Assembly (NCBI GenBank): GCA_005882135.1
Contig: VBDR01000025.1
Location: 152,480 to 216,479, forward strand
Direction of reading: 5' to 3'
Origin: Chloroflexota bacterium
Lineage (GTDB): Bacteria > Chloroflexota > Dormibacteria > Dormibacterales > Dormibacteraceae
DNA: 64,000 bases
The translations under genes were made by a program, and so were the position numbers. The notes beneath the pieces are model-generated. The model did no database searches and had not been told where the DNA came from. It saw nothing but the letters and a program-made list of their open reading frames with translations. This document shows, piece after piece, positions 6,929-15,428 of the stretch; the first letter of the stretch is position 1, and every line of letters starts with the position of its first letter.

Positions 6929-9900
6929 TTGGTTCTGCCGACAGTCACACGTCGGGAATTCCTCAAGGTCGGCGCCGCCGGCGCCGGTGCACTCGCGGCC
7001 ACGGGCCTCGGTTTCGACCTCGCGGTGGCGGAGTCGACGCGCGTCAAGCAGAAACTCCGGATCGCAGGGACGAAGGAGCTGCACAGCGTTTGCCCCTACT
7101 GCGCGGTCGGTTGTTCCCTGGTGGCTTATACGCGCCAGAAAAGCGATGGCACGACTGAGCTTCTCCAGATCGAAGGCGACCCCGACAGCCCCGTCAATGA
7201 AGGTCGCCTTTGTCCCAAGGGCGCGACCGCGATGCAGCTTGCCGTATCGCCCCGGCGAGTCGAATCACCGCAGTACCGAGCCGCCGGTGCAACTGCGTGG
7301 AAGAGCGTTTCGTGGGACTTCGTGCTCGACAAGGTCGCACAGAACATCAAGGCGTCCAGGGACGCGTCGTTTGTGACGACCGACGGCAACGGCAACATCG
7401 TGAACCGGTGCGAAGGGATCGCCTTCGCCGGAGGCGCCGCGTTCAGCTCGGAGGAGGGCTACTTCGCCACCAAGCTGATGCGCGGCCTGGGACTGGTGCA
7501 TCTAGAACAACAGGCCAGGGTTTGACACGGTCCCACGGTGGTCAGTTTGGCCGCCACATTCGGAAGGGGAGCGATGACCAACCACTGGCGCGACATCAAG
7601 AACGCCGACCTCATCCTGATCAACGGCGCCAACCCCGCTGAGGCGCATCCGGTCGGCTTTCAGTGGTTCATGCGCGCCAAGCTCGATCGCGGCGCGAAGA
7701 TGATCCACGCCGACCCGCGCTTTACGCGCACTTCCGCCGTCGCGGACATGTACCTGCGCATCCGCACCGGATCCGATGTCGCTTACTTCGGCGGACTGAT
7801 CAATCACGTCCTCCAGAACAACCTGTTCCACGACGCGTACGTCCGCAATTACACCAACGCCTCCTTCATCGTCAAGCAGGGATATGCATTCAACGACGGC
7901 CTGTTTTCCGGTTACGACCCGGACAAGCGCACCTACAACATCGCGACCTGGAGCTACGAGAGCGATTCGGCCTCCGGCTTCGCCAGGCGCGACCTGACAC
8001 TGCAGGACCCGCGGTCGGTGTTCCAGCTGATGAAGAACCATTACTCGCGCTACACGCCGGAGGTCGTGTCGAGCATCACTGGCATCCCGGTCGCTGACTT
8101 CAACAAGGTCGCCGACCTGGTCGGCCAGATGGGCAAGCCGGACAAGGTGATGACCATCGTCTACGCGGTGGGGCTGACGCACCACACGACTGGTGGCCAG
8201 CTCATCCGGTCCGGCGCGGTGCTGCAGCTGCTGCTCGGCAACATGGGCCGGCCTGGCGGTGGCATGAACGCAGAGCGCGGACACGCCAACATCCAGGGCA
8301 ACACCGACCACGCGATCTCGTGGGAGATCCTCCCCGGCTATCTGAAGATCCCGGCGCCGGGCCAAAAGACCATCGCCGACTACGTCGCCCAGAGCGCTCC
8401 GAAGAAGTCGGACAAGAACTCGTGGAACTTCTTCGGCACCAACTACAGCAAGTTCATGGTGAGCACGCTCAAGGCGTGGTACGGCGACGCGGCCAAGAAG
8501 GACAACGAGTTTGCGTTTGACTTCGTGCCCAAGCCGGCTTCCAACGCGTCATGGATGACGATCTACGACCAGGCGCTGAAGGGAAAGATGGAGGGCCTGT
8601 TGCTCTCGGGCATGACGGCGGCCAGCATCGGTCCCGACAGCAACCAGGTGCAATCGGCCCTCGGCAAGCTGAAGTGGCTGGTGATCATGGACGCACTGCC
8701 CACGACCAGCTCCGAGTTCTGGCGCGCACCGGGGGTCGACGCGAGCCAGATCAAAACCGAGGTCTTCATGCTCCCGGCCACGCACTGGATCGAGAAGGAC
8801 GGGTCGTTCGTCAACAGCGGCCGCTGGTCGCAGTGGAAAGACCAGGTCCTGCCGCCCCAGGGCCAGTCTCGTCACGACCACTGGATCCTGGCCGACCTCT
8901 TTCAGCGGGTGAAGAAGCTATACCAGGCCCAGGGCGGCAAGTTTCCCGACCCCATCACGAGCCTGACCTTCAACTACAAGGATCCGCTGAAGCCGGAGCT
9001 CGACGAGATCGCCAGAGAGATCAACGGCAAGGACCTGACCACCGGCAAGCAGATGACCTCGTTCGCAAACCTGAAAGACGATGGAACCACCACGACCGGC
9101 GACTGGATTTACACGGGCAGCTATCTCGATTCGGGCAACCTGATGAAGCGGCGTGGCGGCATCCAGGACCCGAAGACCAACGATCCGACTGGGATGGGCT
9201 TCTATCCAAACTGGTCGTGGAGCTGGCCGCTCAACCGCCGCGTCATGTACAACCGCGCATCGGCGGACCTCGACGGCAAGCCATGGGACCCGGCGCGGCC
9301 GGGGATCACGTGGGATGGCAGTAAGTGGGTCGGCGATGTCCCCGACTATCCGCTGACGATGAACCCTCACGACCCCAACGCGTGGCTCCCTTTCATCATG
9401 AATGGCGAGGGCGTGGGTCGGCTGTTCAGCAACGGCATGGTCGACGGACCATTCCCAGAACACTACGAACCGGTCGAATCGCCCGTGGCCAATCCGCTGC
9501 ATCCCAACAACTCGGCGTCACCGGTCGCATTTCTCTACGACAAGGCGGCCGGCAGGCCGAACCGCTTTGGGACGCCCCAGGAGTTTCCGTACATAGCCAC
9601 CAGCTACCGCCTCACGGAACACGAGCACTACGTGACTCAGCACGTGCCGCACCTCGTGCAGCTGCAGCCGAAGCCTTTCGTCGAGATTCCGTACGAGCTG
9701 GCGAGCGAGAAGGGCATCAAGAGCGGCGACCATGTGAGGGTCTCGTCGAAGCGTGGCAAGGTCGAGGTCCTCGCGCTGGTGACCAAGCGGCTCGGCCCGA
9801 TGACGGTCGCCGGCCAGAAGGTGTACCAGATCGGGATCCCGATTCACTGGGGCTACATCGGCCTCTCCGCTGAAAGCGACCCAAGCCACGGGCGCTACTG

Positions 9901-9991
9901 GCTGGCCAACGCGCTGACGCCGTTTGTTGGCGACGCCAACGCGCGCACGCCCGAGTTCAAGGCGTTTCTTGTCAACCTGGAGAAGATGTGA
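6929..9991 (+). CDS. fdnG: Formate dehydrogenase alpha subunit, selenocysteine-containing, Tat-exported
   Basis: TTG start, Tat motif TRREFLKVG, 4Fe-4S CPYCAVGC, in-frame UGA at 7523-7525 in LEQQARV-U-HGPTVVSLAATFGRGAMTNHW (Sec position of FdnG-type enzymes); frame continues to the TGA at 9989-9991. The ORF track splits it into 6929-7525 and 7538-9991. Confidence 0.95.
7537..7555 (+). promoter_or_regulatory. bacterial SECIS hairpin (fdnG)
   Basis: GGTGGTC-AGTTT-GGCCGCC, 7-bp stem (with G-U pairs), 5-nt loop with G second, stem starts 12 nt after UGA. Confidence 0.75.
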
Positions 9992-13989: not shown

Positions 13990-14814
13990 TCAGCGGCTGG
14001 CGACGAGGAGCTCGAGCGAGTCGACAAGACGCGGTCCCGGCCGGTTGAAGTAAGCGGATCCGTCGAGCACGACGACGGAGGTGGCTCCTGTTGCTTCGAT
14101 CTGGGGCCGCACGTAATCGGCCTCTTCCTCTGCCCGGGCCTGGCTGAACCCGCAGGGGGCCAGGATGAGCAGCTCCGGTTTCGCCTTCCCAACGTCGTCC
14201 CACGAAAGCGCAACCGACGGCACGCCGGCTCGCGCCAGGGGATCCTCGATCCCTGCGAGCGCCAACAGGTCCGGCGTCCAGTGGCCGGCGCGATATGGCG
14301 GATCTATCCATTCGAGGAAGACCCCCCGCACACGCGGCAGCTCGGCGGCCTTCGCCGAGGCGGCTTCAATGCGACGGCGCAGGCGCGCCATCAAGGGTAG
14401 TGAGTCGGCGCCGCACACCTCGGCCAGCTCCTCGATATCCGCCAGCACATCTCGAAGCGAGTGCGGATGCTGCCTGATCATCCGGATGCCGGTCAGGTCT
14501 TGCGCCACCTGGTCGGCGGGGATCGCGCAGACGTCGCAGATGTCCTGGGCCACCACGAGGTCGGGGTCGAGCCGGAGGATGGCGTAGGTGTCGACCTCGT
14601 ACAAGGAGCGTCCCTCGCGTGCGGCGAACGCGACCGCATCCTCGATGCCCGAGCTGCCCTGGTTCGCCAGGTCCAGCGTTGGCCTGGTGACCACCGGCAG
14701 CGATGCGGCCTCGGGCGGGTGATCACATTCATGAGTGACCGCGACGAGCTGGTCGCCGAGGCCCAGCGCGAACAGGGACTCGGTCGCGCTGGGCAGCAGC
14801 GAAACGATCCTCAT
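13990..14814 (-). CDS. Cobalamin-binding/BtuF-like periplasmic binding protein domain protein
   Basis: RIVSLLPSATESLFALGLGDQLVAVTHECDHP; ABC vitamin B12 binding fold. Confidence 0.85.
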   Translation of the reverse strand: MRIVSLLPSATESLFALGLGDQLVAVTHECDHPPEAASLPVVTRPTLDLANQGSSGIEDAVAFAAREGRSLYEVDTYAILRLDPDLVVAQDICDVCAIPADQVAQDLTGIRMIRQHPHSLRDVLADIEELAEVCGADSLPLMARLRRRIEAASAKAAELPRVRGVFLEWIDPPYRAGHWTPDLLALAGIEDPLARAGVPSVALSWDDVGKAKPELLILAPCGFSQARAEEEADYVRPQIEATGATSVVVLDGSAYFNRPGPRLVDSLELLVASR

Positions 14815-15428
14815 TCCGGTGAGGTTAGCCGGTCGACGACCTGCTTCAAAACGTCATAAGGCTGCGCGCCCATGACCAGGTAGCGGCGACCGAAGATATG
14901 GGCGGGTATCGCGTCGATCCCGGCGGAGGATGCAGCCCGGCGGTTCTCGTCGATCACCGCCGCGTACCGGTCTTCTGTGATCGCGGCCCTGAGCTCATCG
15001 GTTTCCAGGCCTACGCCGGCGCCGATCCGCACGAGGTCGTCGACGTCTTCCAGCTTTCCGGTGCCTGCCCAGTGCGCGTTGAAGAGCGCGTGGTGCATTG
15101 CGTCGAAACGACCGCGTTCGCGTGCGAACTCCGCCGCGCCGAGCGCGCGCCGAGAATTGATGATCACGTCGCGCTGCCGCATCTCCAGGCCGACGCCCGC
15201 CGCCACCGACTGCAGGTGATCGTGAATGCGCTCGGTACGGGCACGGCCGAAATAGACTTCGCGGGGGATGCCCTCTACAGGGGCCTCGGGATGCAGCTCA
15301 AAAGGCAGCCAGGTGACGTGAACCGATCCCTCGCGCTCGAGCTGTTCGACCCTGACCGAGTCGATGTAGCACCACGGTCAAACGTAGTCCGAGAAGATGA
15401 TCAGATCGACCGGCGCCGTCTTGGCCAT
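14811..15428 (-). CDS. FrnE/DsbA-family oxidoreductase, predicted selenoprotein (UPWC active site)
   Basis: Reverse-complement reading from ATG 15428: MAKTAPVDLIIFSDYV-U-PWCYIDSVRVEQLEREGSVHVTWLPFELHPEAPVEGIPREVYFGRARTERIHDHLQSVAAGVGLEMRQRDVIINSRRALGAAEFARERG...; UGA at 15378-15380 sits at the first Cys of CPWC; the frame is open to 14811. The ORF track lists only 14811-15206. Confidence 0.9.
15346..15364 (-). promoter_or_regulatory. bacterial SECIS hairpin (frnE-like selenoprotein)
   Basis: UCGACUC-GGUCA-GGGUCGA, 7-bp stem starting 14 nt after UGA, GGUC loop resembling the E. coli fdhF loop. Confidence 0.8.

Follow-up and report, generated by a model that had tools for sequence, protein, structure and literature searches.

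The window analysed here, a stretch of DNA of 64,000 nucleotides, carries on its minus strand (14811-15428) a predicted selenoprotein gene for a FrnE-type oxidoreductase of the DsbA family, 205 residues long and with the active site UPWC. When the minus strand is read from the ATG at 15428-15426 to the terminal TGA at 14813-14811, the gene forms one frame with a TGA at 15380-15378 as the sole internal stop, just as the first-pass annotation had described. This codon (15378-15380, minus strand), which we read as selenocysteine (Sec), corresponds to residue 17, the first position of UPWC, and the N-terminal part of the read-through product is MAKTAPVDLIIFSDYV-U-PWCYIDSVRVEQLE... The codon for Cys20, the second active-site residue and the expected resolving thiol, lies at 15369-15371 on the same strand, and this residue is invariant in alignment A1. 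The earlier remark that all but the last 131 codons are lost from the open reading frame track is borne out by the standard list, which keeps just 14811-15206; the active site is consequently invisible in standard annotation. A naive scan for a TGA with a Cys codon nearby gave 26 matches in the window, so the motif alone is weak and homology decides. Directly downstream lies a gene for a protein of the periplasmic-binding-protein fold (BtuF-like, PF01497; 13990-14814, minus strand), which begins with an ATG in a 4-nt overlap with the stop of the selenoprotein gene, making co-transcription of the two genes probable.

With regard to family membership, the PF01323 DSBA profile matched the read-through protein with 106.4 bits (cut-off 25.6) over residues 9-197, and thus across the TGA, in agreement with the earlier claim that homology continues on both of its flanks. 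In addition to this score above the cut-off, the protein has the thioredoxin fold with a helical insert that defines the DsbA family. The best sequence match in the PDB was FrnE of Deinococcus radiodurans (E 2e-22), with SCO1869 of Streptomyces also near, and the alignments with both proteins put the TGA on the first Cys of CPWC. The AlphaFold model of the protein (mean pLDDT 93) had FrnE structures as its top PDB folds, with TM values of 0.83-0.87. The FrnE/DsbA identity proposed in the first-pass annotation therefore stands, the more so as the SDxxCPWCY active site of the FrnE subfamily is found, Sec being allowed, and FrnE is the nearest solved relative. Apart from U17 and C20 the protein has no redox residues; Pro175, at the cis-Pro position, is invariant. 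The C-terminal CxxxxC of FrnE is absent from the 205-residue protein; since it is also missing in some accepted FrnE proteins (PMC8945050), it is no strict criterion for the subfamily. The Rcas_1661 (seleno)lipoprotein model NF041057 matched the C-terminal part alone, with 47.5 bits against a curated cut-off of 190, and the protein is not a member of that family.

Relatives were collected at several depths. The window's family comprises 42 genomes and is the single family of its order here, so that a search at the level of the order gave the same 42. The gene with the TGA was found in 31 of these genomes. One of the 31 (G003, loci L041 and L138) has the same TGA with one base fewer directly after it, which shifts the frame and may represent a deletion or an assembly error. 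One further genome of the family (G019, L136 and L141) holds just two partial tandem copies that are fused, lack the N-terminal active-site part and lie beside a cold-shock gene. The search of the class added relatives from a second family (f4), each with one internal TGA where the codon is covered, as well as two more distant relatives in f2. From the public genome collection came further Chloroflexota loci, including two TGA-bearing ones from Ktedonobacterales, as well as Cys forms from Anaerolineales, Dehalococcoidia, Myxococcota and Pseudomonadota; the nearest named records to the gene were soil metagenome Chloroflexi genomes. Over all loci the codon at the position was TGA in 47, TGC in 45 and TGT in 16. 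In the non-redundant Sec clade, which takes in every relative from the window's family and the second family of the class that covers the codon, TGA occupies the identical codon in 39 of 39 loci, whereas the codon is TGC or TGT in 61 loci at a greater distance. The alternation of U and Cys that had been put forward as a check is thus seen across the more distant homologues, and relatives have the first Cys of CP(W/F)C exactly where the stop had been said to replace it. Neither of the two families studied yielded a Cys version of this orthologue.

A second FrnE-type paralogue is present in G034 and G038 (L133 and L134), with the sequence SDIV-U-PWCYIGKRRFE and a TGA at the same active-site Cys, while the copy in G035 (L137) has Cys and a frameshift. 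A tree of 114 rows gave two state changes, one for the main Sec set and one for this second paralogue; the tree was a quick one with long branches, and neither its deep branches nor the direction of the changes can be taken as secure.

Next to the TGA, a bacterial SECIS-like hairpin lies at 15346-15364 on the minus strand, with a 7-bp stem (UCGACUC/GGGUCGA) and the loop GGUCA. The first-pass annotation had recorded the same hairpin with a spacing of 14 nt; the hairpin is there, but it starts 13 nt after the TGA. It is situated immediately 3' of the UGA and has a G in a small apical loop, as is characteristic of a bacterial SECIS element. The five inner pairs are intact in every one of 38 distinct sequences, one pair being variously U-A, U-G or C-G; the loop reads GGUCN or something close to it that contains a G. 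Rfam gave no match in the window at the gathering threshold, and the folding energy of the hairpin is unexceptional (z -0.53).

The encoded peptide itself predisposes this region to pairing, and it might be argued that Sec is inserted without the hairpin being the signal, the pairing following simply from conservation of the peptide IDSVRVE. As many as 15% of random synonymous sequences for these residues pair fully, and so do two of 67 Cys loci. However, all seven pairs are retained in 36 of 41 Sec loci (88%), and the stem codons have one fifth of the usual synonymous diversity (0.10, compared with 0.50 in other conserved codons; p 5e-4). The Cys homologues show no such synonymous drop, in a comparison limited to one stem codon. 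Moreover, all 7 pairs persist in L055, a divergent locus with different residues. We therefore regard an origin of the pairing in the peptide as improbable, and favour the hairpin as the insertion signal. Among the Cys homologues, one from Chloroflexota (L070, 1321-1899) has all 7 pairs at the SECIS position, either as a relic or by chance. The two Ktedonobacterales loci with TGA (L092 and L102) have a different hairpin, UUCCA-GUU-UGGAA, further downstream.

The coding sequence was also compared with that of same-genus relatives. Downstream of the TGA, dN was about 0.14-0.18 and dS about 0.8-1.9, and in the 16 codons upstream dN was lower than dS in all pairs for which dS could be computed. 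The parts on both sides of the TGA are thus under purifying selection as one protein. These values bear directly on the view that the TGA is a real stop, leaving either a pseudogene or a shortened protein made from the downstream frame (the 131-codon ORF, beginning with GTG at 15206), a view that accords with the fact that standard gene callers would give just this ORF. Against it, selection acts on either side of the TGA, the frame upstream has a conserved sequence and a conserved start throughout the genus, and the TGA stays at one codon in all 39 loci of the Sec clade with no build-up of other stops, random stops in close relatives being what the first-pass annotation had named as a sign of decay. 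A real stop is accordingly very improbable. A pseudogene and a sequencing error were both rejected on the relatives, since the same TGA recurs in the 39 non-redundant loci and the 61 distant ones have TGC or TGT.

The first-pass annotation had also pointed to tRNA-Sec, selA, selB and selD as the genes to look for. The genome contains a tRNA-Sec with the anticodon TCA (72.5 bits) and adjacent selA (506 bits) and selB (350 bits) genes; selD was not found in this assembly, which is 85% complete. In the family of 42 genomes, tRNA-Sec was matched with at least 65 bits in 32, selB was found in 34 and selD exceeded its curated cut-off in 36. The tRNA-Sec matches below 65 bits probably represent other tRNAs with a long arm. 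Of the 36 family genomes whose selD exceeds the cut-off, 34 (L129-L132 among the loci) have an in-frame TGA within selD itself. The window also holds, about 7 kb from the FrnE-type gene, a gene for the alpha subunit of formate dehydrogenase (6929-9991, plus strand) with an in-frame TGA at 7523-7525, at the Sec position (ARV-U-HGPT), and a hairpin of similar placing after it; genes for FdhE, Fe-S, NrfD and Mrp-type proteins lie downstream. This subunit is the second, classical selenoprotein of the window, and its TGA is an internal sign that UGA is decoded as Sec in the cell. That TGA has been recoded throughout the genome as another amino acid (Trp or Gly), for which the reassignment of TGA in some bacterial lineages offers a generally known precedent, is hardly conceivable and was rejected on the Sec machinery, the terminal TGA stops and the relatives, since genes here (the FrnE-type gene and that of formate dehydrogenase) terminate at TGA, homologues otherwise have Cys at the position, and a tRNA-Sec with the TCA anticodon, SelB and a conserved hairpin are present.

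The claim that the UGA stands for Sec is thus supported by tRNA-Sec, selA and selB in the genome and by the fixation of the TGA among close relatives, and the apparent stop in this DsbA/FrnE-type gene of a soil Chloroflexota almost certainly encodes selenocysteine at the active site. Our full reading, in which we have high confidence, is that of a probably cytosolic FrnE-type thiol:disulfide oxidoreductase whose UGA at 15380-15378 is translated as Sec by means of the downstream SECIS element, with Sec as the nucleophile. Sec insertion at this codon would proceed by recruitment of SelB with Sec-tRNA-Sec to the hairpin 13 nt downstream of the UGA, whereupon the ribosome would place Sec there and continue to residue 205. 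As the N-terminal and nucleophilic residue of U-P-W-C, Sec would attack either a disulfide in a substrate or a low-molecular-weight mixed disulfide, after which Cys20 would resolve the intermediate to give a selenenylsulfide, which a cellular thiol reductant would recycle; both the direction of this redox reaction and the cytosolic location of the protein are presumed. Sec would be expected to enhance the redox properties of a FrnE-type protein. In the description given in PMC8945050, Deinococcus FrnE acts in the cytosol as a disulfide reductase or isomerase and is regenerated with the help of its C-terminal CxxxxC. As the present protein lacks this motif, its recycling route would have to differ from that of Deinococcus FrnE.

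Among known proteins, D. radiodurans FrnE (DR_0659; 5cnw, 5co3, 5cp1) is alike in fold (TM up to 0.87), belongs to the DsbA family and has its CPWC at the same place (PMC8945050), but here Sec replaces the first Cys, identity is about 30%, and the Deinococcus protein has about 245 residues and the C-terminal CxxxxC, compared with 205 residues and no such motif. SCO1869 of Streptomyces coelicolor (3gl5) is likewise FrnE-type with the same fold (TM 0.87) and has Cys where the present protein has Sec, at 28% identity. The cytosolic disulfide reductase DsbM, HCCA isomerase and kappa-class GST have the overall fold in common, but they are weaker fold matches with less than 20% identity and belong to another subfamily.

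The selenoproteins closest in kind come from COG2761, which we take to be the FrnE group. DsbA-like UxxC selenoproteins from the Sargasso Sea were assigned to this COG in 2005 (PMC1088965), and DsbA-like selenoproteins appear again in later surveys and reviews (PMC2398784 among them), so that the metagenomic precedents mentioned in the first-pass annotation do exist. The Sargasso Sea and GOS proteins (COG2761, pfam01323) resemble the present one in having Sec as the first residue of UxxC and a SECIS-like hairpin with a G in its small apical loop (PMC1088965, PMC2398784), a likeness that, for the 2005 proteins, is one of motif, Pfam and FrnE similarity. However, those members are marine, whereas the present protein belongs to soil Chloroflexota, is fixed across two families and has a second Sec paralogue. 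In the open-access literature we found no paper on bacterial FrnE selenoproteins under that name and no relevant one on selenoproteins of this lineage or of Limnocylindr-. Since such proteins were already reported in 2005, the kind has been predicted since then; what is new is a well-supported member throughout a Chloroflexota lineage.

A survey from 2006 counted three selenoprotein families for Chloroflexota (PMC1794560), to which phylum a firm selenoprotein is now added. In an enzyme type for which Cys is the usual choice, it shows Sec fixed throughout a deep clade. The natural pairs of Sec and Cys homologues provide material for asking what selenium contributes to a disulfide oxidoreductase. 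The evidence leaves it evenly poised whether this soil lineage relies on a Sec-only FrnE-type enzyme, with the UGA kept across contexts and a second paralogue gaining Sec separately. If so, the lineage would have a cytosolic disulfide system that depends on selenium and differs from that of Deinococcus FrnE, given that the C-terminal regenerating Cys pair is lacking.

As to genomic context, within the genus the selenoprotein gene and a VOC (glyoxalase-family) gene are divergently oriented, and the BtuF-like gene comes directly downstream of the former in roughly half of the loci. More distant relatives retain the TGA without VOC or BtuF-like neighbours. The BtuF-like product itself carries CDVC, and the selenoprotein families given in a 2026 review (PMC13188914) include a BtuF family with CxxU.
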